NCBI GenBank assembly: GCA_945878405.1 | Contig: CAMCTJ010000010.1 | Span: 1-64,000 of the forward strand | Source of the DNA: Bdellovibrio sp. ZAP7 | Lineage (GTDB): Bacteria; Bdellovibrionota; FAC87; UBA2466 | Direction: 5' to 3' | DNA length: 64,000 bases | In this document: piece by piece, positions 14,092-29,630 of the stretch | Position numbering within the stretch: the first letter of the stretch is position 1 | How the letters are laid out: each line of letters starts with the position of its first letter | The notes under the pieces: model-generated | What the model was told of the DNA's origin: nothing | Databases searched by the model: none | Seen by the model: the letters and a program-made list of their open reading frames with translations, nothing else | Program-made: the position numbers and the translations under genes

Positions 14092-14907
14092 ATGCGGCAT
14101 CCCGGACTCTATTACGATTCAAAGTTTTTGATGGATTCAGACGAAAAAAAGGTTTTGGATTACCTTTCCGAGCTTCATCCGATTTGGGAAAATCGATATT
14201 CAAAACACCGACCGCCGCCCCAAGGGGAATCCCAGCGCCAGTTACTGAGACCTGTTTATTGGCTCGGGAATTGGCAATTTGCCTGTTTGGATTATTACCG
14301 GCCCCCCAAAGGAACCGCTTTTAGGTGTGTGCGCGCTGAACCCTATCCTGAAGTTTTACAAAGGCTTGTAAATAAGATGGAAAAGATAACTTTTCAGCAG
14401 TTTCGCCCCAAAGAAATTCCCAAGGGATGGAAACTGAATACTTGTTTAGTGAATTTTTACGGCAGTCACTTGGAAAATGGAAAGCTCGTTGATGTAGCGC
14501 GAGTGGGAGAGCATAAAGATTTTGAACCAGGGCCTGTAGCTTCTCTTTCTTTGGGAGAAAGGGCGTTTTTTCAGTTTGTGGATAGCCGAGGAAGAGGAAT
14601 GCCCAGCCGAGTTGTTTTCCAACAATGGCTTGAAAATGGATCACTTCAGATTTTTGGCGGAGAGCGTTATAAAGACCGGTTATTTCATCGTGTCCAAAGG
14701 GTTGAAAAGAAACAAGGAATCCAGCTTCCTATAAAGGTGGAAAACTTTCAGACGCGACGAGTAAATTTTACGTTCCGATTTGTTCCTGATGAACACATTC
14801 TTCCTCTCAAAAAATTTCCGAAGGATCTCTTAGAAGATCTCCTTCCCTACGCGAAAGAGCTTGCTCAACACTCTGAGTTCTTTTCCTCAGAAATAAAAAA
14901 TATTTGA
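14092..14907 (+). CDS. AlkB-like 2-oxoglutarate/Fe(II) dioxygenase
   Basis: A 271-residue protein with the active-site layout of AlkB-type dioxygenases, which oxidatively remove alkyl groups from nucleic acids or sometimes proteins. N121-x-Y123 precedes the HxD iron motif H141-K-D143, the distal iron histidine is H199 in LFHRVQ, and arginines at 222-229 (RRVNFTFR) can bind 2-oxoglutarate. The N-terminal 60 residues probably form the nucleotide-recognition lid. The start is uncertain: no ribosome-binding site precedes the ATG at 14092, and an in-frame ATG at residue 14 is possible. The substrate cannot be told from sequence. It is a single gene, with nuoA 89 bases downstream. Confidence 0.8.
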   Translation: MRHPGLYYDSKFLMDSDEKKVLDYLSELHPIWENRYSKHRPPPQGESQRQLLRPVYWLGNWQFACLDYYRPPKGTAFRCVRAEPYPEVLQRLVNKMEKITFQQFRPKEIPKGWKLNTCLVNFYGSHLENGKLVDVARVGEHKDFEPGPVASLSLGERAFFQFVDSRGRGMPSRVVFQQWLENGSLQIFGGERYKDRLFHRVQRVEKKQGIQLPIKVENFQTRRVNFTFRFVPDEHILPLKKFPKDLLEDLLPYAKELAQHSEFFSSEIKNI

Positions 14908-14996: not shown

Positions 14997-15401
14997 TTGG
15001 AGACGGGATACATCAGTGCGTTTTGGTTCATCGTGGTCGCAGCTATCACAGTGCCTCTAATGTTAGGGGTCGGCGCTCTTCTTAGACCTAAATCCATTCC
15101 CACCCGACGGGGAACTCAAGCCTACGAATGCGGTGAAGATCCCATAGGAAGTGCTTGGGTCAAGTTCAACATTCGTTTTTACGTGGTTGCCATTATCTTT
15201 ATTATTTTTGATGTGGAAGTCGCGGCTGTTTTACCCGTGGCAACTCAGTTTAAGGAAGCTGTTTTGAGTGGCAGTGCCGGCTTTGTGTTTGCAGAAATAT
15301 TTTTGTTTGTAGCTCTCTTAGTCTTGGGCCTGATCTATTGTTGGGTTCGAGGTGATTTGGAGTGGGTAAAAGGCGTGACTCAAAACGCCCCCAGAAAATA
15401 A
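14997..15401 (+). CDS. nuoA: NADH-quinone oxidoreductase subunit A (set 1)
   Basis: A 134-residue membrane subunit with three helices at the interface of the membrane and peripheral arms of complex I. The loop motif YECGEDP near 42 and the IFDVEVA segment in helix 2 are diagnostic. Translation starts at TTG, supported by GTGAGGG eight bases upstream and the lack of a better start. It is the first gene of a 14-gene run; nuoH begins immediately after its stop. Confidence 0.93.
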   Translation: METGYISAFWFIVVAAITVPLMLGVGALLRPKSIPTRRGTQAYECGEDPIGSAWVKFNIRFYVVAIIFIIFDVEVAAVLPVATQFKEAVLSGSAGFVFAEIFLFVALLVLGLIYCWVRGDLEWVKGVTQNAPRK

Positions 15402-16550
15402 ATGCCAGTGAACTCTGCACTTTTTGCTCAATCATTAACTCAGTGGACTCAAGGCACTTGGTTTGCCTCTGTTCCTATCTGGGTTTGGGCTTTGGTTTCT
15501 GCTCTTATCATTATTTATATGTTGGCCCTGCCTTTTGGGGGCATTGCTACTTACGTAGAGAGAAAAATTGCGGCTGATCTTCAAGATCGCATTGGTCCAA
15601 ACCGTGTGGGTCCTTTGGGAATTTTTCAATTCGCAGCAGACGCTATAAAAATGATTTCAAAAGAAGATTACGTTCCACCCGGGGGAGATCGTTTTCTCTT
15701 TAATATCGCCCCTGTTCTCGTGGTGGTGGGTTCTTGCGCTGGTTTTGTGGCTTTGCCATTGGGTCAGTATCTCGTTGCTGGGGACATCAACATCGGGGTT
15801 TTTTATATCATGGCTATCACCACTATTATTGCCCCCGGAATTTTATTGGGTTCTTGGGCCTCGGAAAACAAGTGGTCTCTCTTGGGCGGGTTACGTTCGG
15901 CTGCTCAAATTGTGAGTTACGAAATTCCAGTCGCCCTTTCAATTGTCCCCATCATCTTGATTAGTGGCAGTCTTCAAATTGGTGAGATTGTAAAACAACA
16001 AGGCTGGCATGATCATTTTTGGAATGTTTTCCACAACCCGTTCACTTTCATTTCTTTCTTTATTTTATTTGTAGGGGGGCTTGCAGAAACAAATCGTATT
16101 CCCTTCGACCTTCCAGAAGCTGAGTCTGAACTCGTCTCCGGATTTAATACGGAATTTTCAGGGATGCGTTTTGGGCTCTACGCGCTCGGCGAATTCGTAG
16201 ACGTTTTTGTGATGTGTGCGCTTGTTACCTCTCTTTACTTGGGAGGATGGCAAATTCCCTTTTTAGAGCTCGATAAATTCTGGGTGACGCTACCATCAGG
16301 TTTAATTGCGCTCATTCACGTTTCCTTCTTCTTGGGAAAAACTTTCTTGCTCGTTTTTGTGGTGATGTGGCTTCGATGGACTTTACCCCGATTGCGAGTG
16401 GATCAGTTGATGGGTCTTTGTTGGAAGGGAATGGTACCGGTTGCCCTATTCAATATTTTAGGAACGGCTATTTGGATGTGGGCTTTCAAGGGCCAATCAA
16501 TGCTCCAAGTAGTTTCGGGACTTTTCTCCGGTGGAGGCGGTTCCCATTAA
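15402..16550 (+). CDS. nuoH: NADH-quinone oxidoreductase subunit H (set 1)
   Basis: A 382-residue, eight-helix subunit that forms much of the quinone-binding channel. Signatures are YVERKIAADLQDRIGPNRVG after helix 1, the conserved acidic loop ETNRIPFDLPEAESELVSG near 230, and LRWTLPRLRVDQLM near the C-terminus. It is longer than E. coli NuoH (325) through an extended N-terminus and an extra C-terminal tail ending GGGGSH. nuoB, C, D, G and I, which normally lie between nuoA and nuoH or nearby, are absent here. Confidence 0.95.
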   Translation: MPVNSALFAQSLTQWTQGTWFASVPIWVWALVSALIIIYMLALPFGGIATYVERKIAADLQDRIGPNRVGPLGIFQFAADAIKMISKEDYVPPGGDRFLFNIAPVLVVVGSCAGFVALPLGQYLVAGDINIGVFYIMAITTIIAPGILLGSWASENKWSLLGGLRSAAQIVSYEIPVALSIVPIILISGSLQIGEIVKQQGWHDHFWNVFHNPFTFISFFILFVGGLAETNRIPFDLPEAESELVSGFNTEFSGMRFGLYALGEFVDVFVMCALVTSLYLGGWQIPFLELDKFWVTLPSGLIALIHVSFFLGKTFLLVFVVMWLRWTLPRLRVDQLMGLCWKGMVPVALFNILGTAIWMWAFKGQSMLQVVSGLFSGGGGSH

Positions 16551-16565
16551 AGTGGAAGTGATGTC

Positions 16566-17087
16566 ATGACCAATGGAATGAAATGGATACTTCTCATCGC
16601 AGAACTTCTGACGGTGGGGTCTGCTCTTATTGTAGCTATTAATCCCAACATCCTTTATTCAGCAGTTTTTCTGCTCTTTTCCTTTTTGGGCATCGCGGTG
16701 ATGTATCTTTTTGCCGGAGCTGATTTTCTAGCAGGGGTACAAGTGGTGGTTTATGTTGGCGGCGTTACCATTTTGATTCTGTTCGCCATCATGTTGACCC
16801 AGTGGCTTTATCGCTTAAAGCTGAAAGATATTGGAAGCAAGTTTGTGGTTCCTGGAGTTGTTTTAGCTTTGGGACTAGTTCCCTTTCTGCATCGAGGCTT
16901 AACTCAGCTTGGAAAAATGGTTCAGGCTGCGCCTCCCGAAAAAATGGCAGAGTTTGCAGCTTCTCCTAAGACGGCCATGATTGGAAAAGCTCTTCTAACT
17001 AACTATGTACTGCCGTTTGAAGCCGTGACGATTTTATTACTGGGCGCTTTAGTAGGCGCCGTTTGGTTAGCGAGACCCAAAGCATGA
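16566..17087 (+). CDS. nuoJ: NADH-quinone oxidoreductase subunit J (set 1)
   Basis: A 173-residue membrane subunit with five predicted helices. The helix-3 segment YVGGVTILILFAIML, with the family pi-bulge glycines, is clear. It follows nuoH by 15 bases with GGAAG before the ATG, and its stop overlaps the nuoK start (ATGA). No Fe-S nuoI gene precedes it, unlike the common H-I-J order. Confidence 0.93.
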   Translation: MTNGMKWILLIAELLTVGSALIVAINPNILYSAVFLLFSFLGIAVMYLFAGADFLAGVQVVVYVGGVTILILFAIMLTQWLYRLKLKDIGSKFVVPGVVLALGLVPFLHRGLTQLGKMVQAAPPEKMAEFAASPKTAMIGKALLTNYVLPFEAVTILLLGALVGAVWLARPKA

Positions 17088-17407
17088 ACTTACTTGATTT
17101 TTCAAACAGCATTGAAGGTTATCTTTTAGTCAGTTCCATTCTTTTAACGTTGGGAATTTTTTCGGTTCTTACTCGAAAAAATGCCATTGGAATTCTTTTG
17201 GGAGTTGAACTGATTCTCAATGCGGCCGGAATCAATTTTGTGGCCTTCAGTAAATTTCACTCAGCTGCCATTGATGGTCAGATGGTGACCTTATTTATTA
17301 TTTTAATCGCAGCCGCCGAAGCAGCAGTGGCTTTGGCTATTATTTTAAGATTTTATCGTTTGAAACAGACCATTGATGCTGATGAAGCATCGCTGCTTCG
17401 AAATTAG
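17084..17407 (+). CDS. nuoK: NADH-quinone oxidoreductase subunit K (set 1)
   Basis: A 107-residue, three-helix, MrpC-like subunit. The two proton-path glutamates are present: E42 (GVELILNA) and E79 (AAAEAAVALAI). The ATG at 17084 is chosen over an upstream in-frame TTG because it makes the ATGA overlap with nuoJ and gives the family length. The nuoL ATG follows nine bases after the stop. Confidence 0.95.
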   Translation: MNLLDFSNSIEGYLLVSSILLTLGIFSVLTRKNAIGILLGVELILNAAGINFVAFSKFHSAAIDGQMVTLFIILIAAAEAAVALAIILRFYRLKQTIDADEASLLRN

Positions 17408-17415
17408 AGGAGATT

Positions 17416-19488
17416 ATGGCTCAGTCTTGTCTTTGGATAGTAGCTTTACCGCTGACAGCGTTTGTGATTCAGGCGCTCGTTGGAAAGAGGCTCCCTCGCC
17501 AGGGGGATTGGGTTTCTGTGCTTGCGATTCTGGGTTCTTTCGCCCTTGCTACTCCGATTTTCCTAAAGCTCTTGGCTACCGGAGCTGTCCATGAAACTTT
17601 GCAGTTCAATTGGATGGTGATGCCTGGAGTGGACGCAGTTTCAAATAGTCCCATTCTAAACAAAGCAGTGACGCTGACTGTAGGGGTTTTAGTAAATAAC
17701 CTGACGGCCATCATGTTGTTCATGGTTACACTGTGCGCTTCTCTTATTCATATTTTCTCCACGGGTTACATGCACGGAGAGAGCCGTTATCACCTCTTCT
17801 TTGCCTACATCTCTCTTTTTTCGGCGGGAATGTTGGGCCTTGTGATCTCCGATAATCTCCTGACGCTCTTCATGTGTTGGGAAGTGATGGGGCTTTGCTC
17901 CTATCTTCTGATTGGTTTTTATTACCAAAAACTTTCTGCTAACAACGCTAGCCTAAAAGCTTTCATGACCACTCGAGTAGGGGACGTGATGTTCTTCTTG
18001 GGAATTTGTGGTCTTTATTATGTCTTTGGCACAAGCAACTTAAGTCAGATCTATGAAGGAATTAAAACTGGAGTAGGCAGCGACGTCACTCTGCTAGGGA
18101 TTCCAGCTCTCGCGTTCATTGGTTTCATGCTCATGATGGGAACCATTGGTAAGTCCGCACAGTTTCCTTTGCAGGTTTGGTTACCCGATGCGATGGAAGG
18201 CCCCACTCCGGTATCAGCCCTTATTCACGCTGCCACGATGGTGGCCGCAGGGGTTTTCTTGCTGGTGAGAACTTATCCTGTTCTTGAAGCTGCGAAAGTT
18301 GTGTTGCCAGTTATCGCAACGGTCGGGGCACTCACTGCTTTTCTGGCTGCTTGCATTGCTCTGGTTCAAGTCGATATCAAAAAAGTGCTCGCTTATTCCA
18401 CGATTTCACAATTGGGTTTCATGGTTTTAGGAATGGGAGTTGGATCTTTTGCTCCAGGCTTCATGCACGTGATTACGCATGCTTGTTTTAAAGCCTGTCT
18501 CTTCTTGGCTTCAGGCTCAGTGATTCACTCCGTTCATACGCAAGACATGCGCGAAATGGGCGGACTCAGATCGAAAATGCCCATTACTTTCCTAACGATG
18601 TTTATTGCAACACTTGCGATTGCCGGCGTACCTGGTTTTAGCGGCTTTGTGAGTAAAGACAGAATCCTGGGTGACGCTTTAGCTTATGGGATGACCCACC
18701 CTAGTCAGATGTGGATTCCAGTTTTGGGATTCATCACTGCGGGTTTAACGGCGTTTTATATGTTCCGCCTCATCTTCATGACCTTCTTTGGACACGCGCG
18801 AGATGAACACAAGCATCACCATGCCCATGAATCTCCTATCACGATGACTTTCCCGTTGATGGTCTTGGCCGCTCTGTCGTTTGCTATCGTCTTTGCAGGA
18901 CCTACGGGAATTCACTCCGTGGATGCTAATTTATTACCCATTCACTGGTTTGATCACGCACTGGATCATGTGAAAACAGAAATGGGCGTTCAAGGTTTGC
19001 ATGCCAGTGAAGAAGTTGAGCACCATGCTCACAGCCTTGCCATGATTGTTTCCTTGGTAGTGGCCGGTCTGGGTATTTTCCTTTCGGCACTGACCTATTT
19101 AAAGAAGGTCATTTCAGCTGCGGCTTTTGAAAAGGCTCTCAAGCCAGTTCACACGCTTTTGTGGAACAAATATTACTTTGATGATCTCTATATCAAGGTC
19201 GTCATCCAGAAGTTGTTTTTACCACTTACTGTATTGATGGCGAAATTTGACGACAAAGTCGTGGATCACATTTTTGTGGATGGCTGGGCCAAGGTTGCGA
19301 TGGTCTTAAAATCTGTCATTGCGAAATTTGATGATGTGGTTGTCGATAAATTGGCTGTTGATGGCTCTGGAACGGTTGTCTCCGCAGGGGGATGGGTTTT
19401 GCGCCAATTTCAGACCGGTAAAGTTCAGCAGTATTTGATTCTAACTTTCATTGTTTTTGGAATGTTACTTTTTTATATGACGAGGTGA
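17416..19488 (+). CDS. nuoL: NADH-quinone oxidoreductase subunit L (set 1), long form
   Basis: A 690-residue antiporter-like proton-pumping subunit, preceded by GAGGAG. The core has FMCWEVMGLCSYLLIG near 155 and GKSAQFPLQVWLPDAMEGPTP near 240, with the usual HAATMV segment after it. The region after helix 14 has a His-rich loop (HKHHHAHE) and a long C-terminal part that should form the lateral helix along the arm. That part contains a near-perfect repeat, AKFDDKVVDHIFVDG at 609-623 and AKFDDVVVDKLAVDG at 636-650, spaced 27 residues apart. The protein is 61 residues longer than the set 2 NuoL. Confidence 0.95.
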   Translation: MAQSCLWIVALPLTAFVIQALVGKRLPRQGDWVSVLAILGSFALATPIFLKLLATGAVHETLQFNWMVMPGVDAVSNSPILNKAVTLTVGVLVNNLTAIMLFMVTLCASLIHIFSTGYMHGESRYHLFFAYISLFSAGMLGLVISDNLLTLFMCWEVMGLCSYLLIGFYYQKLSANNASLKAFMTTRVGDVMFFLGICGLYYVFGTSNLSQIYEGIKTGVGSDVTLLGIPALAFIGFMLMMGTIGKSAQFPLQVWLPDAMEGPTPVSALIHAATMVAAGVFLLVRTYPVLEAAKVVLPVIATVGALTAFLAACIALVQVDIKKVLAYSTISQLGFMVLGMGVGSFAPGFMHVITHACFKACLFLASGSVIHSVHTQDMREMGGLRSKMPITFLTMFIATLAIAGVPGFSGFVSKDRILGDALAYGMTHPSQMWIPVLGFITAGLTAFYMFRLIFMTFFGHARDEHKHHHAHESPITMTFPLMVLAALSFAIVFAGPTGIHSVDANLLPIHWFDHALDHVKTEMGVQGLHASEEVEHHAHSLAMIVSLVVAGLGIFLSALTYLKKVISAAAFEKALKPVHTLLWNKYYFDDLYIKVVIQKLFLPLTVLMAKFDDKVVDHIFVDGWAKVAMVLKSVIAKFDDVVVDKLAVDGSGTVVSAGGWVLRQFQTGKVQQYLILTFIVFGMLLFYMTR

Positions 19489-19499
19489 GATAAACGCGT

Positions 19500-21029
19500 A
19501 TGGCTCAATTACCTATTCTTAGTTTAATGACCTTCATTCCCTTATTGGGAATGTTTGTGATTTTGGCTCTTCCAAAAGGCAAGCCGAACATGGTTCGCTG
19601 GGCATCAGTGATCTTCACTGGAATTCCCCTTCTCCTGGGCATTTGGCTTTACTTCAACTTTGATAGAACTACAGCAGCAGTTCAGTTTGTTGAACGAGTT
19701 TCCTGGATTAAGGCATTCAACATTGAATACTACATGGGTATTGATGGATTAAGCGTGCCGATGGTTCTTTTAACGGTTCTTTTGTCCTTCCTCTGTGTGT
19801 TTGCTTCTTGGGGAATCGAAAAGGGCGTCAAAGGTTACTACGCCATGTTCTTATTTTTAGAAGCGGGGATGATGGGAGTTTTCTGTGCTCTGGATTTCTT
19901 TCTTTTCTTCATTTTCTGGGAAGTGATGCTTCTTCCTATGTATTTCCTGATTGGTATTTGGGGAGGAAAAGACAAAGTCTACGCAGCTATTAAGTTTTTC
20001 CTTTATACGCTGGCGGGTTCTGTGTTGATGCTTCTTGCGATGCTCGCAATGTACTACTACTCCGAGCCGCACACTTTTGATCTTTTAGCGCTTGCTCAAA
20101 ACCATACACAGTTTTTGAACAAGACAGTGACTTTGTTTGGAGCTCAATACGCTCTAGACAAAATTCTGTGGATTGGTCTCTTTATCGGTTTTGCTATCAA
20201 GGTTCCGATTTGGCCTTTCCATACCTGGTTGCCATGGGCGCACGTGGAAGCACCGACTGCAGTTTCTGTGATTCTGGCGGGTGTTCTATTGAAAATGGGA
20301 ACTTACGGACTACTTCGTATGAATTATCCCATTTTTCCTGAAGCGACCCTTTGGGCTTCAACCGCCATGATGATTCTTGGGGTGATCAACATTATCTACG
20401 GCGCCTTCTGTGCTATGGCTCAAAAGGATTTGAAAAAGCTGGTTGCTTACTCTTCAGTTTCTCATATGGGTTATGTCATCATGGGAATGGCTAGCTTTAC
20501 CACAGCAGGGGTAAACGGAGCTGTAATGCAGATGTTTAATCACGGCACATCTACTGCGATGCTCTTTCTTTTGGTCGGTGTTGCTTATGACCGAGTCCAT
20601 CACCGGTGGATTATCAAACCCGATGGTTCCAAAGGATTTGGAGGAATTGCTTCCGTTGTTCCTGTCTATACCGGAATGATGGCAATTGCTTTGTTTGCTT
20701 CTTTAGGACTTCCTGGCTTGTCCGGGTTCATCAGCGAAGCCCTCGTTTTTCTGGGAACTTTCTCAAATCCAAAATACCAAAGTTATGTAGTGGTGGGTTC
20801 ACTAGGGATTTTGTTGGGAGCGGCTTATTTGCTGTGGATGTTCATGAGAGTGTTCTTAGGTCCTTTAAATGAAGAGCACAAAGATATGACCGATATGAAC
20901 TGGAGAGAGAAACTGACGTTGTTACCTCTTTGTGTGTTGGTCATCGTTTTGGGGGTTTATCCCATGCCAGTGCTTAATCTCATGGGGCCAACTCTCGCAA
21001 AGCTATTAAGCGCATTGGGGGTAGCATAA
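19500..21029 (+). CDS. nuoM: NADH-quinone oxidoreductase subunit M (set 1)
   Basis: A 509-residue antiporter-like subunit. The key proton-path residues E141 (FWEVMLLP) and K234 (AIKVPIWP) are present. It departs from the family in the following loop: W246 replaces the usual Asp in WLPDAH, and V255 replaces the usual Gly in APTAGS. GAGGTGAG precedes the ATG at a workable distance. nuoN follows after one base. Confidence 0.95.
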   Translation: MAQLPILSLMTFIPLLGMFVILALPKGKPNMVRWASVIFTGIPLLLGIWLYFNFDRTTAAVQFVERVSWIKAFNIEYYMGIDGLSVPMVLLTVLLSFLCVFASWGIEKGVKGYYAMFLFLEAGMMGVFCALDFFLFFIFWEVMLLPMYFLIGIWGGKDKVYAAIKFFLYTLAGSVLMLLAMLAMYYYSEPHTFDLLALAQNHTQFLNKTVTLFGAQYALDKILWIGLFIGFAIKVPIWPFHTWLPWAHVEAPTAVSVILAGVLLKMGTYGLLRMNYPIFPEATLWASTAMMILGVINIIYGAFCAMAQKDLKKLVAYSSVSHMGYVIMGMASFTTAGVNGAVMQMFNHGTSTAMLFLLVGVAYDRVHHRWIIKPDGSKGFGGIASVVPVYTGMMAIALFASLGLPGLSGFISEALVFLGTFSNPKYQSYVVVGSLGILLGAAYLLWMFMRVFLGPLNEEHKDMTDMNWREKLTLLPLCVLVIVLGVYPMPVLNLMGPTLAKLLSALGVA

Positions 21030-21030
21030 C

Positions 21031-22512
21031 GTGACTCCGGAAATGCTGGTTAGTTTAAAGGCGTTTGCTCCCGAGCTCACTCTCGTGGGCTTTCTCTCTC
21101 TGTTGTTTTTGCTCGATGGGTTTGTACCCAAACTTCGAGAGAACCGGTTTCCCCTTATCTGGGTGATTGTTTCCTGCTTTGCTGCTGGAGTTGCAACGGC
21201 TGTTGGAAAAGGCCTTTCGGGAGATTTCTTTTCAGGGTTGGTTACCGAAACTGGGTTGGTCGCTTTTTTTCGTTACTTCTTCTTCTTTGCTTGTGGAGTG
21301 ACTGCCTATGTGACTTTGGGGTCCAAAGAAATCGAGGAGCGGGGCCGCTCGGAATTTTCTTTACTCATCCTTTGCATGACTTTTGGAATGAGCCTCATGG
21401 TTTTGGCGAATCATTTCCTCATGCTCTATATCGGAATTGAAACCGTCTCTATTATTTCCTTTGTCCTAGCCGGGTTCAATCGAGAAAGTTCTCGTTCAAA
21501 CGAAGCTTCATTTAAATATTTAGTTTATGGGGCTGTTTCCTCGGGTCTTATGATCTACGGAATCAGTTTAGTTTATGGGTACACAGGCGCTCTCAGTTAC
21601 CCTGCGATTGCCGAAGCTTTGATCAAAAATAATGGCACCCATCCCTTTGTTTTCTACCTAGCTTTGGTGATGATCTACGCGGGATTTGCCTACAAAATTT
21701 CCTCTTTTCCCTTTCACTTTTGGACCCCTGACGTTTACGAGGGTTCCCCAACTCCTGTGGCAACTTTCTTTTCCGTCGGGCCTAAAGCGGCTGGATTTGG
21801 TGCTCTCCTACACTTTGTTTTAACCGCTCTCTCACAAAAGCAAGAGGGTGGGGTGTTTACTCCGATCGCAGGCATTCAGTTAGCTCCTGTAATGGCTTTG
21901 ATTTCTGCAGCCACGATGGTCGTTGGAAACTTGAGTGCAATTGCTCAAACCAACGTGAAAAGAATGCTAGCTTTTTCCAGTATTGCTCACGTGGGCTATG
22001 TGCTCATGGGGTTTGTTGTCATGACGCCAGCTGCTTTCTCCTCCATTATTTTTTATCTCATTGCTTACTGTGCAATGAATCTGGGCGCTTTTTGGATCGT
22101 AGGAATTGTAACCGACGAGAAAAAAGGGTCCGAACTCAGTGATTTCAAGGGAATGGGCTGGAGAACACCCGTGATGGGGGTTTGCATGGCCATCTTCCTG
22201 TTTTCTCTCACTGGAATTCCTCTCTTTTCGGGCTTTATTGGTAAGTTTCTTATCTTTGGAAATCTTATCCAGAGCCAATCCTATCTTTGGTTAGCTCTTT
22301 TAGGAGTTTTGAACAGCGTCGTATCTCTCTATTACTACACCAAAATTCTTAGAGCGATGTGGTTAGAAAAGCCAGAGAGTTCAGATTCAGCAGAGCTCCG
22401 ACTTCCCTTGTCCCAATTAGTTGGCTTATTGGGATTAGCACTTCCAACAGTAATTTTAGGATTATTCTTTTCACCTGTTTTGGAAATGGCTCAGCGTTGG
22501 ATCACTCAGTAA
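21031..22512 (+). CDS. nuoN: NADH-quinone oxidoreductase subunit N (set 1)
   Basis: A 493-residue antiporter-like subunit beside NuoK. The lysine helix is KISSFPFHFWTPDVYEGSPTP near 225, and the KRMLAFSSIAHVGY segment, typical of NuoN, lies near 310. Translation starts at GTG, one base after the nuoM stop. The stop is followed without any gap by the ATG of the second nuoA, so sets 1 and 2 are physically one operon. Confidence 0.94.
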   Translation: MTPEMLVSLKAFAPELTLVGFLSLLFLLDGFVPKLRENRFPLIWVIVSCFAAGVATAVGKGLSGDFFSGLVTETGLVAFFRYFFFFACGVTAYVTLGSKEIEERGRSEFSLLILCMTFGMSLMVLANHFLMLYIGIETVSIISFVLAGFNRESSRSNEASFKYLVYGAVSSGLMIYGISLVYGYTGALSYPAIAEALIKNNGTHPFVFYLALVMIYAGFAYKISSFPFHFWTPDVYEGSPTPVATFFSVGPKAAGFGALLHFVLTALSQKQEGGVFTPIAGIQLAPVMALISAATMVVGNLSAIAQTNVKRMLAFSSIAHVGYVLMGFVVMTPAAFSSIIFYLIAYCAMNLGAFWIVGIVTDEKKGSELSDFKGMGWRTPVMGVCMAIFLFSLTGIPLFSGFIGKFLIFGNLIQSQSYLWLALLGVLNSVVSLYYYTKILRAMWLEKPESSDSAELRLPLSQLVGLLGLALPTVILGLFFSPVLEMAQRWITQ

Positions 22513-22875
22513 ATGGAAACTTTACTCCCATTAGCTATTCTTCTGATTGTTTCTCTTCTTCTTTGCGCAAGCATTTTAATTGTTACTCAATTATTGGGGC
22601 CAAAAAATCCCGTCCCTTCCCGATTAGAATCCTACGAATGTGGGATAAAGCCTGAGAGTGGACCCCATGTTCCCTTTAAAAGTAGCTTTTATTTGATAGC
22701 GGTCTTATTTCTCCTTTTTGACGTAGAAGCCGCTTTCTTTCTGCCTTGGGCTCTTGTTTATAAAGAATCTTTGGCAGAGGGCCCCGCACTTCTTTGGGCA
22801 CTCCTCGTTTACTTGGGGCTAATGGCAGTGGGCCTTTTTTATATTTTGCAAAAGAAGATACTGAGACTGAATTAG
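22513..22875 (+). CDS. nuoA: NADH-quinone oxidoreductase subunit A (set 2)
   Basis: A 120-residue second copy of subunit A. It keeps YECGIKP near 37 and LFDVEAAFFLPWA in helix 2. It is not a recent duplicate of the copy at 14997: the sequences differ over most of the length outside these motifs. It starts at the base after the nuoN stop. The nuoH ATG follows its stop by one base. Confidence 0.93.
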   Translation: METLLPLAILLIVSLLLCASILIVTQLLGPKNPVPSRLESYECGIKPESGPHVPFKSSFYLIAVLFLLFDVEAAFFLPWALVYKESLAEGPALLWALLVYLGLMAVGLFYILQKKILRLN

Positions 22876-22876
22876 T

Positions 22877-23941
22877 ATGACGGTACTTGATTTCATTATT
22901 GCTGGGCTCAAAGCCATCGTAATTTTAGTGGCTGTGATCCAGGTGGTTCCTGTCATGATTTATGTCGAGCGCAAAGTAGCAGCTTTGATTCAAGATAGAC
23001 CAGGGCCAAACCGAGTGGGCCCCTTTGGGTTATTACAACCTGTTGCCGACGCTTTGAAGTTTCTTTTAAAAGAAGATCCCATTCCCCTTTATACCCATCG
23101 ACTTCTTTACACTTTAGCTCCGTTTCTTTCTTTGATTCCTGCTTGTTTGGTGATTGCTGCACTTCCCATTGCAGATAAGGCCATTTTGTTTGGAAAAGAA
23201 ATCACGATTCAGATATCGGATCTCGACGTTTCTTTAATTTACGTGCTCGCTATTGGGTCCTTGGGAGTTTATGGAATTTTGTTTGGAGGATGGGCCTCCA
23301 ATAATAAGTATTCCCTCATTGGGGCTTTAAGATCCGCATCCCAAATGGTCAGTTATGAATTGCCCCTTGGTCTCGCCGCTGTGGGGGCAGTAATGGTTTT
23401 TGGGACTTTTTCTTTGAGAGAAATGGTTCTGCAACAAGAAGGAACGCTATTAGGTGTTCTTCCGAATTGGGGAATTTTCTATCAGCCTATTGGATTTCTT
23501 ATTTTTCTCGTGGCCTCATTCGCCGAGACAAACCGACTCCCTTTCGATCTCCCTGAGTCAGAAGCCGAGTTAGTGGCTGGCTTTCATACGGAATATGGAA
23601 GTATGAAGTTTGCGACTTTCTTCATGGCCGAATACATGAATTTGGCAACGATGTCGGGCTTGATGACGGTTATTTACTTTGGGGGATGGCACTTGCCTTG
23701 GGTGACCGATGCTCAACTGTTGGAACTTCTTGGCTCACAGAATCTCCTCTGTTTGATTCAAGTGGGCACCTATATTTTCAAAGTTTCTGTTTTCATGTTT
23801 TTGTATGTACTTATTCGTTGGACCTTACCTCGATTTCGTTTCGATCAGCTCTTAACTCTCTCCTGGGGAAGTCTTATTCCAATAGGGCTACTGAATATCG
23901 TCGTGAGCGCTATCCTCATGTATGTCTTGGGGGGGAAATAA
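22877..23941 (+). CDS. nuoH: NADH-quinone oxidoreductase subunit H (set 2)
   Basis: A 354-residue second subunit H. YVERKVAALIQDRPGPNRVG and ETNRLPFDLPESEAELVAG are intact, and the C-terminal RWTLPRFRFDQLL segment is present. Compared with the first copy it lacks the extended N-terminus and the Gly-rich tail. The stop overlaps the ATG of nuoJ (TAATG). Confidence 0.95.
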   Translation: MTVLDFIIAGLKAIVILVAVIQVVPVMIYVERKVAALIQDRPGPNRVGPFGLLQPVADALKFLLKEDPIPLYTHRLLYTLAPFLSLIPACLVIAALPIADKAILFGKEITIQISDLDVSLIYVLAIGSLGVYGILFGGWASNNKYSLIGALRSASQMVSYELPLGLAAVGAVMVFGTFSLREMVLQQEGTLLGVLPNWGIFYQPIGFLIFLVASFAETNRLPFDLPESEAELVAGFHTEYGSMKFATFFMAEYMNLATMSGLMTVIYFGGWHLPWVTDAQLLELLGSQNLLCLIQVGTYIFKVSVFMFLYVLIRWTLPRFRFDQLLTLSWGSLIPIGLLNIVVSAILMYVLGGK

Positions 23942-24444
23942 TGAAAGAAGCGGTTTTTACTTTTTTCTCATTATTCACGCTTCTGACAGCAGCTGGTGTG
24001 GTGCTCTCCCGAAACGTGATCTATAGCGCTTTTAACTTGGTGCTGTGTTTTTTTGGGCTAGCTACTCTGTATCTTTTGTGGGGAGCTACCTTCATTTCCA
24101 TGGTTCAAATCCTGATTTATGCAGGCGCTATTGTTGTTTTGTTTGTATTTGTGGTGATGCTTCTTAACTTTGAGAAGCCGAATGAGCGCAAGACCCGACT
24201 TCCCATAATTCTTTTGTCCAGCGCTGGAGTTTGGACCTTTGCCCTCATTCTCCTTCGCGTTCTTTCAAAGAGCGTGGGCGAGATTCCAGTTTTGGAAACA
24301 ACGGCTCGGGCTTCGGTCCGAACGGTTTCTAAATTGTTGTTCTCTCAGTATTTATGGCCATTCGAGGTCTTAACTGTTTTTCTCTTGGCTCTGATCGTGG
24401 GTATTTTTGTATTGGCTCGGCCGGAAGGGGAGGAAGTGAAATGA
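23941..24444 (+). CDS. nuoJ: NADH-quinone oxidoreductase subunit J (set 2)
   Basis: A 167-residue second subunit J with YAGAIVVLFVFVVMLL in helix 3. The start at 23941 is chosen for the TAATG overlap with nuoH; the longer in-frame extension upstream lies inside nuoH and has no homology to the family. The stop overlaps the nuoK ATG (ATGA). Confidence 0.93.
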   Translation: MKEAVFTFFSLFTLLTAAGVVLSRNVIYSAFNLVLCFFGLATLYLLWGATFISMVQILIYAGAIVVLFVFVVMLLNFEKPNERKTRLPIILLSSAGVWTFALILLRVLSKSVGEIPVLETTARASVRTVSKLLFSQYLWPFEVLTVFLLALIVGIFVLARPEGEEVK

Positions 24445-24764
24445 TTCTCGCAGAAAAGCTCACTTCCATGGCCTATTGGAGTCACTTCGTTAGCATCGCT
24501 TTGTTTGCTTTAGGGTTACTGGGATTTCTCACTCGAAGAAATGCGCTGATCGTTCTCATGAGTTTGGAACTGATGCTCAATGCCGTGAATTTACTTCTAG
24601 TTCAAATTGCAATGCGCACTGGAACTTCTGAAGGGATTGTCCTGGTGGTTTTTGTAATCACGGTAGCTGCGGCTGAGGTGGCTGTTGGATTGGGAATCAT
24701 CTTAAATCTTTACCGAATGAAAAAAACAGTAGATTTGGGTTCGTTTAGGAATTTATCGGGTTAA
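24441..24764 (+). CDS. nuoK: NADH-quinone oxidoreductase subunit K (set 2)
   Basis: A 107-residue second subunit K with both functional glutamates, E43 (SLELMLNA) and E79 (AAAEVAVGLGI). The start is set by the ATGA overlap with nuoJ and matches the length of the first copy exactly. nuoL begins two bases after its stop. Confidence 0.95.
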   Translation: MILAEKLTSMAYWSHFVSIALFALGLLGFLTRRNALIVLMSLELMLNAVNLLLVQIAMRTGTSEGIVLVVFVITVAAAEVAVGLGIILNLYRMKKTVDLGSFRNLSG

Positions 24765-24766
24765 CT

Positions 24767-26656
24767 ATGCAGAGCATTTTCCTATTAATGATGGTCGCAC
24801 CCTTGTTGGGCAGTATTGCTAATGGTCTTGTTCTCCGTTCGAGTGAAGCAAAGCGAGCAGGGACGTTAGCCACTGTTGCAGTGTTTGTCTCATTTTTCTG
24901 CGCACTCATTCTATTTTCTCAAGTTGCCTCAGGAGCTGGGGAGCCCATAGAAATGTCCTGGCCGTGGATTCAAATTGGAAATTTAAACATCGAATGGGGT
25001 TTTCGATTTGATCGCCTAACATCCGTGATGAGCTTAGTGATTACCGGTGTGGGTAGCTTGATTCATCTTTACTCGATCGGGTACATGTCGCATGAAAAAG
25101 GCAGTTACCGCTATTTTGCGTATTTAAACCTGTTCGTTTTTCTCATGTTGGTCTTGGTGAGCGCAGGCAACTTAGCTGCCCTCTTTGTGGGATGGGAAGG
25201 AGTAGGGCTTTGTTCTTATTTACTCATTGGTTATTGGTTTGAAGATCCCGAAAAGGCAAAAGCAGGGATGAAGGCATTTCTTGTTAATAGAATCGGAGAC
25301 GCCGGATTCTTAATGGGAATGTTTTTTTGTTATCAGCTTTTTGGAACGTTAGATTTCCAGAAAATTAACGCCGCTATTGATGCTCAATCAGGTTTCAATA
25401 TTCAGCTCATGAACATTGCTGCTTTCTTTTTGTTCGTTGGTGCTACGGGAAAGTCGGCTCAAGTTCCACTCTATGTTTGGCTGCCCGATGCTATGGCGGG
25501 TCCGACTCCGGTTTCTGCTTTGATCCACGCAGCGACCATGGTTACTTCGGGCATTTATTTAATTGCTCGGTTGGAGCCCCTTTTTGTAATGACTACCGAC
25601 ACCAACACGGTGATCGCATTCACCGGCTTGGGAACTGCGCTCTTAGCCGCCTTCATAGCGACTAGCCAAAGAGATATTAAAAAAGTTTTGGCTTATTCTA
25701 CCGTAAGCCAGTTGGGACTAATGGTGTTGGCCTTGGGGTGTCGGGCCTATGTGGCTGCCTTATTTCATCTCGTGACTCACGCGTTTTTCAAAGCACTTTT
25801 GTTTTTGGGATCGGGGAGTGTCATTCATGCTCTTGAAGGGGAACAAGATATCAGCAAAATGGGCGGACTTCGAAAGAGTCTTCCTGTTACCTCGCTGACT
25901 TTTTTAGCGGGTACCGTGGCGATTGCAGGCATTCCCCCTCTCGCTGGGTTCTTTAGTAAAGATACGATTCTCCATGCGGCTCTGGTTGCAGATTTTCGAC
26001 TTTGGATTGGCGGAGCAGTCGTAGCCACTCTGACAGCTTTTTATATGTTTCGACTTTATAGTCTGACCTTCTTGGGGACCTATCGAGGCAAAGCCCATCC
26101 CCACGAGAGCCCCTGGGTGATGACTTTGCCTTTGGTGATTTTAGCAGTTGCCAGTGTGTTTGCTGGATTTCTGGGAGTCCCGCACGAATTTCATTGGATC
26201 CCAAACTTCTTTGAAGAATACCTTAAGCCGGTGATCCCACCTTATGAGTTCGAGGGTACCCTCGCTATTTCCTCTCACCAGGCAATGTTAATCACAACGG
26301 GTTTGGCCTTTTTGTCGAGTGCATTGGCCCTAGTTATTTTTTCGAGAGCGAAATCAACGGAAACCAAGATTTCGTTATTTCGTCCCTTTCAGATGGTGTT
26401 TGAAAATCGTTTTTGGGTAGACGAGCTCTATGGTGCTTTGTTTGTGAGACCCTTCCAGGCGATATCTAAGTTTTTTGCGGCGATCGTGGATCCGAAAGTT
26501 ATCGACGGCGGAATTCTTTTGATGTCTCGAGCGGCAAAACGTCTCGGGGGAGTAGTCGTTCTCGTCCAGACCGGAAATGTTCAGTGGTACCTGTTCCTGA
26601 TGATGATTGGGGTTGTCGGGGGACTGTTTTTACTTCTCCGAGGGAGAGTGATCTAA
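24767..26656 (+). CDS. nuoL: NADH-quinone oxidoreductase subunit L (set 2)
   Basis: A 629-residue second subunit L of ordinary length. FVGWEGVGLCSYLLIGYWF near 145, GKSAQVPLYVWLPDAMAGPTP near 230 and the HAATMV segment are all canonical, as is the RFWVDELYGALFV turn into the lateral helix near 545. It lacks both the His-rich loop and the 27-residue repeat seen in the first copy. The stop overlaps nuoM (TAATG). Confidence 0.95.
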   Translation: MQSIFLLMMVAPLLGSIANGLVLRSSEAKRAGTLATVAVFVSFFCALILFSQVASGAGEPIEMSWPWIQIGNLNIEWGFRFDRLTSVMSLVITGVGSLIHLYSIGYMSHEKGSYRYFAYLNLFVFLMLVLVSAGNLAALFVGWEGVGLCSYLLIGYWFEDPEKAKAGMKAFLVNRIGDAGFLMGMFFCYQLFGTLDFQKINAAIDAQSGFNIQLMNIAAFFLFVGATGKSAQVPLYVWLPDAMAGPTPVSALIHAATMVTSGIYLIARLEPLFVMTTDTNTVIAFTGLGTALLAAFIATSQRDIKKVLAYSTVSQLGLMVLALGCRAYVAALFHLVTHAFFKALLFLGSGSVIHALEGEQDISKMGGLRKSLPVTSLTFLAGTVAIAGIPPLAGFFSKDTILHAALVADFRLWIGGAVVATLTAFYMFRLYSLTFLGTYRGKAHPHESPWVMTLPLVILAVASVFAGFLGVPHEFHWIPNFFEEYLKPVIPPYEFEGTLAISSHQAMLITTGLAFLSSALALVIFSRAKSTETKISLFRPFQMVFENRFWVDELYGALFVRPFQAISKFFAAIVDPKVIDGGILLMSRAAKRLGGVVVLVQTGNVQWYLFLMMIGVVGGLFLLLRGRVI

Positions 26657-28176
26657 TGATGTCGGCGATTTTAGTGAGTCTCTGTGTGTTGCCAATCATT
26701 GGAGCTTCTCTCATTTTCTTGGGCCCCGAGAAATTGGCTAGAAAAACCGCTTTAGCGGTCAGTCTTCTTTGCCTTGCCTTGAGTATTCCGCTCTACTTTG
26801 GTTTTGATGGGACACAATCTCAGATCTTCCAAGGTGTTGTTTCCATTCCTTGGGTACCTGCTTTGGGAATTAAATTCGCTTTGGGAATAGATGGACTCAG
26901 CTTTCCGTTAGTCCTTTTGACTCAGCTGATGTTACCCATTGCGATTTTGGCTAGCTGGCATGAGGAAAGAAATCCGAAGGCGTTTATGGCCTGCTTCCTG
27001 GTTTTGAGTTCCTTTATGACAGGAACTTTCCTGGCGACCGATCTTTTTCTATTCTATGTTTTCTGGGAAGCGATGCTCATTCCCATGATTTTGTTAATTG
27101 GAGTGTGGGGAAGCCAAGAAAGAATTTACGCTGCTTTAAAGTTTTTTCTTTTCACTTTCGCTGGGAGCCTGCTGATGCTTTTGGCTGTGGTAACCCTTTT
27201 CGTTTCCTACAAGACACAGACAGGAGTCATGACTGCAGATATTTCCGAGCTGACTAAAGTCGTGCTTTCTAAAGAGCCGATTCTTTTTGGTCTGAATATC
27301 CAGGATCTTGTTTTTTGGGGGTTTACCTTAGCGTTTTTAGTGAAGGTACCTTTATTTCCTTTGCACACTTGGTTGCCGGATGCCCACGTCCAAGCGCCCA
27401 CTGGCGGCAGTATTCTTCTGGCTGCTGTTCTTCTGAAAATGGGAACTTACGGGCTTCTCAGGTTTTCTATTCCCTTTGGGTCTGAGAGTTTTTCTCGGTT
27501 TGCACCTTTGATTGCTGTCCTGAGCCTTGTGGGGATTTTGTACGGGGCATTTGTAGCTTTTCAACAACAGGACATGAAAAAGTTGGTTGCTTACTCCTCT
27601 GTGAGTCACTTGGGCCTAGTCGTACTCGGCATTTGCACTCAGAATCTCGAGGGACTAACGGGTTCGGTTATCCAAAATATCAACCACGGTCTGAGCACTG
27701 GGGCTTTATTTTTCATGGTTGGTTTTCTGTATGACCAAAGGCACTCCCGTCTTTTTTCTGATTACGGTGGTTTAGCAGCTTTGATTCCCTGGTATTCCTT
27801 CTTTTTAGTGTTGGTAGCTTGTTCCAGCATGGCGGTTCCCGGGCTTAATGGGTTTGTAGGGGAAATGCTCATTTTATTGGGTACGTTTGAAGCGAATCCC
27901 TGGTGGGCAGGCATCGGAGTTTTGGGAGTTGTTTTTGGAGCCCTCTATACTTTGACTCTTCTTAAGAAAACACTCTTTGGTCCGGTCACTGCTAACGAAA
28001 ATCGTTCTTTGAAAGACCTGAGCTGGAGAGAGACAGTTCCTCTCATCATCCTAGCTCTTTTTATGTTGTGGATAGGTTTGGCCCCGGGGTTTTTAATCAA
28101 CAAAATGAAGCCGACCCTTGAAAACTATTGGAAGAAGCCCCAGTCGGCTTATGCAATGAGTGGGAATCCAAAATGA
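26656..28176 (+). CDS. nuoM: NADH-quinone oxidoreductase subunit M (set 2)
   Basis: A 506-residue second subunit M. E138 (FWEAMLIP) and K230 (LVKVPLFP) are present, and the loop keeps the canonical WLPDAHVQAPTGGS, unlike the first copy. The start at 26656 is chosen from two adjacent ATGs because it makes the TAATG overlap with nuoL; an in-frame extension into nuoL is rejected. The stop overlaps nuoN (ATGA). Confidence 0.95.
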   Translation: MMSAILVSLCVLPIIGASLIFLGPEKLARKTALAVSLLCLALSIPLYFGFDGTQSQIFQGVVSIPWVPALGIKFALGIDGLSFPLVLLTQLMLPIAILASWHEERNPKAFMACFLVLSSFMTGTFLATDLFLFYVFWEAMLIPMILLIGVWGSQERIYAALKFFLFTFAGSLLMLLAVVTLFVSYKTQTGVMTADISELTKVVLSKEPILFGLNIQDLVFWGFTLAFLVKVPLFPLHTWLPDAHVQAPTGGSILLAAVLLKMGTYGLLRFSIPFGSESFSRFAPLIAVLSLVGILYGAFVAFQQQDMKKLVAYSSVSHLGLVVLGICTQNLEGLTGSVIQNINHGLSTGALFFMVGFLYDQRHSRLFSDYGGLAALIPWYSFFLVLVACSSMAVPGLNGFVGEMLILLGTFEANPWWAGIGVLGVVFGALYTLTLLKKTLFGPVTANENRSLKDLSWRETVPLIILALFMLWIGLAPGFLINKMKPTLENYWKKPQSAYAMSGNPK

Positions 28177-29630
28177 TTATCAATGAGTTTTTAGTTCCCG
28201 TATCCCCCGTTTTGAGTCTGATGCTTGCGGCTGTGGTTCTGATTGTTTTGGAAACCGTTTTTAAAGGAGAGAGAGGGCAGGCAGGAAAATTGTTGGTAGC
28301 ACTGGGCGGACCTCTTCTTTCTATCTTATTTGTTTCACTTTTAGTTCCCGTTGCGAATGCAGGTTCTTTGGCGACTGATAATTCTCAACTGCCCTCGTGG
28401 CTGATGGAGTTTAAAAATTCTTATCAGCTAGACCGACTCAGCGGAGCTCTCTTCCTCGCAATAGGTTTTTTCATGCTGCTTACTCTTGTATTTGTTGAGT
28501 CGTTTTTAACGGGGTTGAAGGAAAAAACAGAAGTATTCGCGCTGCTTTTATTTGCCGGGTCGGGAATGATGCTTTTGGTATCGGCTGGAAATCTATTAAT
28601 GCTCTTCATGGCCCTGGAACTGATGTCTTTGCCCACTTACATTCTCGTGGGGCTAAGAAAAAATGATCTGCGATCTTCAGAGGCGGCTTTAAAATATTTC
28701 CTTTATGGCTCTTTCGCGACTGTCTTGCTGGTCTTTGCGATCGCTCTGCTCTATGGCCAATTTGGAACACTTCAACTAAATGCGATTTCAGGGCTATTTA
28801 AATCCCAAGTACCTACGGGGGTTGCTACCCTCGCGGCTTTTGGACTTCTTTTAGCGGCTATCGGGTTTAAAGTGGGAATGGCTCCTTATCATCTTTGGGT
28901 TCCAGATGCTTACCAGGGTGCACCCACTCCGGTAACTGGCTTTATGGGGAGTGCCATTAAACTCGCGGGTTTTGGTTTAGCTATTCGGGTCTTTGGACAA
29001 ACCCTTCTTCCTCTGGTTCAGGAGTGGGCTACCCCCCTTTCTTATTTTTCAGTTTTTACGATCTTTGTGGGTAACTTGGCAGCACTTCGCCAAACAGATC
29101 TTAAGAGGCTCTTTGCTTATTCAAGCATTTCCCACGCAGGATATCTTTTTCTGGGGGTCATCTCTTTAGGAGGAAGCCCCCAAGCTCTCGAAGCTCTTCA
29201 ATACTACCTTTGGGTTTATGGCCTTTTGTTCTTGGGGACTTTTGGATTGTTGTCTTTGGTTGAAATGCATAAAAAGAATTTGGAATTTGACCGCTTGAAC
29301 GGTCTTGGATTTCAAAGGCCAGTTTTGGGTTTTTGTTTCCTCTTGTTTTTGTTGTCTGCGGCGGGCATTCCCCCGACAGCTGGATTCTTTTCGAAATATT
29401 TTATTTTGATTCAAGCCTTTCAGTCGGGCCAGCGCCTCTCGGTGGTCTTAGCTGCTATGAGTAGCTTGATTGGCGTGTTTTATTATTTGAGAGTAATTTC
29501 CCACCTGTATATGAAATCAGCAGGAACTGCCGAAGCCAGTGTTCCTCGAGCACCGAAAGCAGCTTTCTTGGGAATCTTACTTTGTGGTTTAGCAATGATC
29601 TATTTTTCTTTCGTTCCGGTTTTCTTTTAA
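28173..29630 (+). CDS. nuoN: NADH-quinone oxidoreductase subunit N (set 2)
   Basis: A 485-residue second subunit N. KVGMAPYHLWVPDAYQGAPTP near 235 and KRLFAYSSISHAGY near 310 are canonical. It is the last of 14 consecutive nuo genes. The start is set by the ATGA overlap with nuoM. No intrinsic terminator is recognisable in the 114 bases before hsp20. Confidence 0.94.
   Translation: MIINEFLVPVSPVLSLMLAAVVLIVLETVFKGERGQAGKLLVALGGPLLSILFVSLLVPVANAGSLATDNSQLPSWLMEFKNSYQLDRLSGALFLAIGFFMLLTLVFVESFLTGLKEKTEVFALLLFAGSGMMLLVSAGNLLMLFMALELMSLPTYILVGLRKNDLRSSEAALKYFLYGSFATVLLVFAIALLYGQFGTLQLNAISGLFKSQVPTGVATLAAFGLLLAAIGFKVGMAPYHLWVPDAYQGAPTPVTGFMGSAIKLAGFGLAIRVFGQTLLPLVQEWATPLSYFSVFTIFVGNLAALRQTDLKRLFAYSSISHAGYLFLGVISLGGSPQALEALQYYLWVYGLLFLGTFGLLSLVEMHKKNLEFDRLNGLGFQRPVLGFCFLLFLLSAAGIPPTAGFFSKYFILIQAFQSGQRLSVVLAAMSSLIGVFYYLRVISHLYMKSAGTAEASVPRAPKAAFLGILLCGLAMIYFSFVPVFF

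Follow-up and report, generated by a model that had tools for sequence, protein, structure and literature searches.

Two complex I membrane arms encoded head to tail in one bacterial gene cluster, with two peripheral arms encoded elsewhere in the genome

The canonical complex I, i.e., the NDH-1 of E. coli, is made of 14 subunits (NuoA-N), and an 11-subunit form, found in Desulfitobacterium (a strict anaerobe) and also in cyanobacteria and chloroplasts, carries no NuoEFG. This 11-subunit enzyme occurs in several phyla, its electron donor is unsettled, and no common donor protein emerged when one was searched for (PMC11238625). Sulfurospirillum multivorans is a described case of a genome with two complex I types (cited in PMC11238625); its second type is epsilonproteobacterial, and a tandem of its membrane arms is not reported. 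In Chloroflexi, nuoBCDI is located apart from the other nuo genes (PMC7117926), and the products form one complex that has an additional NuoM.

In this study, we analyzed a stretch of 64,000 nucleotides of bacterial DNA (the window, contig C10), from a genome (G000) of 2.24 Mb in 24 contigs that is 95.75% complete. The window contains two membrane arms in one cluster (sets 1 and 2), and the peripheral arms are encoded on contigs C24 and C21. Set 2 and C24 together encode all 14 subunits of the canonical enzyme, with matching key residues, but unlike in E. coli the membrane-arm genes form one cluster and the peripheral genes an operon far from it, and NuoG has 499 aa rather than about 908. Set 1 and C21 together have exactly the 11 subunits of the Desulfitobacterium enzyme, differing from the known 11-subunit systems in that the membrane and quinone modules are at separate loci and that a 14-subunit enzyme is encoded alongside. 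Two non-equivalent complex I enzymes per cell would be a feature shared with S. multivorans, and the position of the quinone module away from the membrane arm is shared with Chloroflexi, which have a single complex where we find two membrane arms. Our literature search, which covered few subscription journals, found no published case in which a single cluster encodes two membrane arms while both peripheral arms are located elsewhere; the enzymes themselves are of known kinds, and the new part is the gene arrangement.

Sets 1 (14997-22512) and 2 (22513-29630) both read nuoAHJKLMN, and are located head to tail on the + strand (Table 1). A preliminary description of this DNA had reported nuoAHJKLMN twice in 14 adjacent genes, with the second nuoA abutting the first nuoN; both the coordinates and the NCBIfam models bear this out, with the nuoN stop at 22512, the next nuoA ATG at 22513, and therefore a gap of 0 nt. 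All 14 nuo genes are free of internal stops, neighboring genes overlap by no more than 4 nt, and the spacers are no longer than 15 nt. The key residues compared are those established for the E. coli enzyme. In both sets, the compared lysines and glutamates of NuoL, NuoM and NuoN, both NuoK glutamates, the Asp/Glu residues of NuoA, the NuoJ tyrosine, and the acidic loop and arginines of NuoH are kept relative to E. coli, so that, as had been proposed, neither set looks dead. The proposal that the sets are not recent copies also holds, since they share 33-42% identity subunit by subunit and are deeply separated in our tree, where the set 1 subunits and their set 2 counterparts are not recent paralogues. 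Promoter and terminator scans gave no clear excess. A gene encoding an AlkB-like 2OG-Fe(II) oxygenase is present on the same strand (14092-14907), ending 89 nt upstream of the cluster.

Table 1. Genes of the tandem membrane-arm cluster, in window coordinates; the subunit identity of each gene is from NCBIfam models. A longer open reading frame from 23686 is an in-frame upstream extension of set 2 nuoJ.
Gene	Coordinates	Strand	Product and remarks	Evidence
set 1 nuoA	14997..15401	+	134 aa, TTG start	NCBIfam
set 1 nuoH	15402..16550	+	382 aa	NCBIfam
set 1 nuoJ	16566..17087	+	173 aa	NCBIfam
set 1 nuoK	17084..17407	+	107 aa; both membrane glutamates kept	NCBIfam, alignment
set 1 nuoL	17416..19488	+	690 aa	NCBIfam
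set 1 nuoM	19500..21029	+	509 aa	NCBIfam
set 1 nuoN	21031..22512	+	493 aa, GTG start	NCBIfam
set 2 nuoA	22513..22875	+	120 aa; ATG starts at the base after the set 1 nuoN stop	NCBIfam
set 2 nuoH	22877..23941	+	354 aa	NCBIfam
set 2 nuoJ	23941..24444	+	167 aa	NCBIfam
set 2 nuoK	24441..24764	+	107 aa; both membrane glutamates kept	NCBIfam, alignment
set 2 nuoL	24767..26656	+	629 aa	NCBIfam
set 2 nuoM	26656..28176	+	506 aa	NCBIfam
set 2 nuoN	28173..29630	+	485 aa	NCBIfam

No match to NuoB, C, D, E, F, G or I was found among the open reading frames of the window, so the absence of a peripheral arm noted earlier stands for the window, but not for the genome: the genome search for nuoBCDEFGI copies proposed at that time, which we carried out, identified a nuoB-C-D-E-F-G-I locus on contig C24 (L004, 7240 down to 1239) and a nuoB-C-D-I locus with a rhodanese-like gene on contig C21 (L005, 650-3950), both uncut by contig ends. 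Genome-wide, there are two NuoD, two NuoH and one NuoF, and all six antiporter-type subunits of the genome are located inside the window. The NuoB, C, D and I proteins of the two peripheral loci share 36-55% identity, and their NuoB and NuoI keep the Fe-S cysteines. NuoE and NuoF of C24 score above the model cut-off, and NuoG scores 406.6 bits against a cut-off of 470, with a short C-terminal part. In the C21 locus of G000, the gene for the rhodanese-domain protein (L005, 3348-3950) is directly 3′ of nuoI; in G001, G007 and G009, a gene of one common cluster, rhodanese-like in G001, follows nuoI. In the nuoBCDI locus of G016, a gene encoding a 635-aa protein with CCG and 4Fe-4S domains (L110, 9524-11431) overlaps the end of nuoI, and this protein is a candidate redox partner in that genome.

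Comparison of the nuo loci of related genomes, together with subunit trees, both of which had been proposed as checks, indicated that each membrane arm pairs with its own peripheral arm. For example, in four genomes of family f7 (G019, G033, G040 and G046) and in G031 of family f14, set 1 (AHJKLMN) is followed by A-C-E-F-H and the rest of set 2, i.e., set 1 is immediately upstream, and nuoC, E and F interrupt set 2 after its A gene and before its H gene (in G046, the set 1 nuoA falls beyond the contig end). Four f9 genomes that are 99-100% complete (G021, G028, G053 and G057) contain set 1 with a C21-type NuoD and no NuoF, and G018, G055 and G029 contain only set 2 with C24-type peripheral genes including EFG. 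The same division is seen in other phyla, where contiguous A-B-C-D-H-I-J-K-L-M-N operons without EFG (Poribacteria, Ignavibacteriota, Calditrichota, some Bacteroidota and some Planctomycetota) best match set 1 and C21, and contiguous 14-gene operons (A to N, EFG included) have their best matches in set 2 and C24 for most subunits. In the tree of NuoH, M and N, set 1 of G000 and its relatives form one clade within a 39-row group free of EFG operons (SH-aLRT 99), and set 2 is located outside this group, among EFG-bearing rows; in the tree of NuoB, D and I, C21 is within an EFG-less group of 33 rows (SH-aLRT 97), with C24 outside. Set 1 and C21 thus cluster with the 11-gene operons of Ignavibacteriota, Poribacteria, Calditrichota, Bacteroidota and others. 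Both trees are quick searches with SH-aLRT support only, and a few long rows, above all L107, are placed unsurely, none of which touches the pairing. Taken from sequence, these data argue strongly that set 2 and C24 encode an ordinary 14-subunit NADH complex I, and that set 1 and C21 encode an 11-subunit complex I without an NADH module. The f7/f14 linkage and the trees place the set 2 membrane arm and the NADH module in one predicted complex.

The preliminary description had offered two alternatives, namely two complex I types sharing one peripheral arm, or an antiporter-like machine formed by one set. Sharing, in which the two enzymes would differ only in the pump, might be read from the location of the peripheral genes next to neither membrane arm in the window, but the genome encodes two full peripheral sets, BCDEFGI and BCDI, each tracking one membrane arm by linkage, co-occurrence and phylogeny, and we regard it as very improbable. 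An antiporter-like or Mrp-like machine working without a peripheral arm is a still slighter prospect: NuoL, M and N have relatives among the Mrp subunits, but both sets also contain NuoA, H, J and K and retain the acids of the quinone loop, complex I models score best, and cognate BCDI genes are present for both sets. An Mrp-type antiporter, defined by the Mrp subunit set and no quinone module, was rejected on these last two findings. Because there are two peripheral arms, each with a phylogenetic partner, the membrane arms neither share one peripheral arm nor include a separate antiporter.

Alternatively, the 11-subunit complex could borrow NuoEFG from the 14-subunit one and thereby also oxidize NADH, and the encoding of both peripheral arms in the same cell with a single NuoEFG in the genome would allow this; a similar loan was left open in a genomic study of Desulfurivibrio (PMC12142623). 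We consider such borrowing unlikely, with some chance left for it in genomes that encode both complexes, since set 1 and C21-type BCDI occur without any NuoF in the near-complete f9 genomes, and the set 1/C21 clade is free of EFG in several phyla. An origin of the tandem by misassembly or by recent duplication has next to no probability: we found no support for it, the identity between the sets is low and their separation in the tree deep, and 16 other genomes show the same junction, the gap being 0-76 nt. Since other genomes have the same tandem, it is not an assembly error.

Scoring set 1 presence by NuoM identity, we identified set 1 in 31 of the 59 genomes covered. Every f1 or f2 genome that has set 1 (13 in total) carries the two arms next to each other, as do four f7 genomes, G031 and G048 (f9), with measured gaps of 0-76 nt across f1, f2, f7, f14 and f9; in G050 (f4) the arms adjoin with a wider gap of 368 nt, and in G024 the gap is 3.5 kb. 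Five families of the phylum contain the membrane-arm tandem, and this spread indicates that the arrangement is old within the phylum. The phylum is probably Bdellovibrionota, since the nearest named set 1 arms are those of Bacteriovorax sp. and other Bacteriovoracia.

Our survey also identified other complex I-like loci. In the family of the window, G008 (L262, L263) and G005 (L264, L265) contain a 14-gene-type nuo set that is 35-63% like the family set 2 and C24, and that is possibly a replacement from outside. In G041, G020 and G052 (L197, L198, L205), a divergent complex I-like block, with B, D, H, I and M, N at 22-50% identity, adjoins a 14-gene-type nuo operon. A divergent nuoB-nuoCD-nuoI triplet is present in G021 (L107, 7904-10411), with the NuoB and NuoI Fe-S cysteines kept and no membrane-arm partner nearby; similar NuoCD frames occur in G028 (C89), G035 (C76) and G042 (C2), and a whole-genome search of G042 gave no NuoH match. 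This type of triplet is possibly a remnant, or else a soluble redox module.

Based on the pairing described above, set 2 and C24 would form a normal 14-subunit NADH:quinone oxidoreductase, and set 1 and C21 an 11-subunit quinone reductase and proton pump fed by a non-NADH donor; we infer that both enzymes would assemble, pump protons, and share a transcript. Our guess is that electrons would enter the 11-subunit enzyme at NuoI from reduced ferredoxin, and that this ferredoxin would be reduced by, e.g., the contig C2 enzyme (L212), a 2-oxoacid (probably 2-oxoglutarate):ferredoxin oxidoreductase. This enzyme has fused alpha and gamma subunits with a beta subunit, and NCBIfam places it in the 2-oxoacid:acceptor subfamily; since its make-up resembles that of the Mycobacterium tuberculosis enzyme (PMC2773412), 2-oxoglutarate is its inferred substrate. 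We suggest it as the ferredoxin source because the E1 component of 2-oxoglutarate dehydrogenase was not detected in G000, nor in nearly all of its family. G008, from this family, contains neither set 1 nor this oxidoreductase, and has a 14-gene-type nuo set and E1, and the pattern in the family, G008 included, is consistent with a ferredoxin-fed 11-subunit complex.

Across the sample used for an rpoB tree, set 1 is present in 21 of 22 E1-less genomes vs. 8 of 27 with E1, with only three well-supported independent pairs on the tree, which are too few for significance. In a second sample, 13 of 15 E1-less genomes contain set 1, against 30 of 91 E1-bearing genomes; all 30 are from f9, so that the link between set 1 and E1 absence fails within f9, which mostly keeps set 1 together with 2-oxoglutarate dehydrogenase. 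In G021, a POR_N-type oxidoreductase was not detected although the 11-subunit enzyme is kept. Among relatives, no donor gene adjoining nuoBCDI is common to all, with a rhodanese-like gene in f1 and unrelated genes elsewhere, and the CCG/4Fe-4S protein of G016 is not shared either. A KorA-like 2-oxoacid:ferredoxin oxidoreductase gene is present near the 14-subunit peripheral operon in f4 (G016:C5, G024:C9, G044:C5, G050:C135, G054:C18), rather than by nuoBCDI. All of these points count against the ferredoxin guess. Judged from gene content, the chances that reduced ferredoxin is the general donor of the 11-subunit enzyme are roughly even. We propose only tentatively, as somewhat improbable in its full form, that the 2-oxoglutarate step of the TCA cycle would reduce ferredoxin, which would feed a dedicated, proton-pumping 11-subunit ferredoxin:quinone complex I, with one membrane-arm operon serving both this complex and the NADH complex I.

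In these bacteria, complex I genes are grouped by module, with the pumps together and the inputs apart, and not by enzyme. This co-location would probably be an old arrangement in the phylum that puts both pumps under one control, with the input modules regulated apart. A lineage with both enzymes and co-encoded membrane arms, together with relatives that contain a single type (G021 with the 11-subunit type only, G018 and G055 with the 14-subunit type only), provides natural contrasts for finding the donor. If the proposed route is true, electrons from the 2-oxoglutarate step would return to the respiratory chain with proton pumping.
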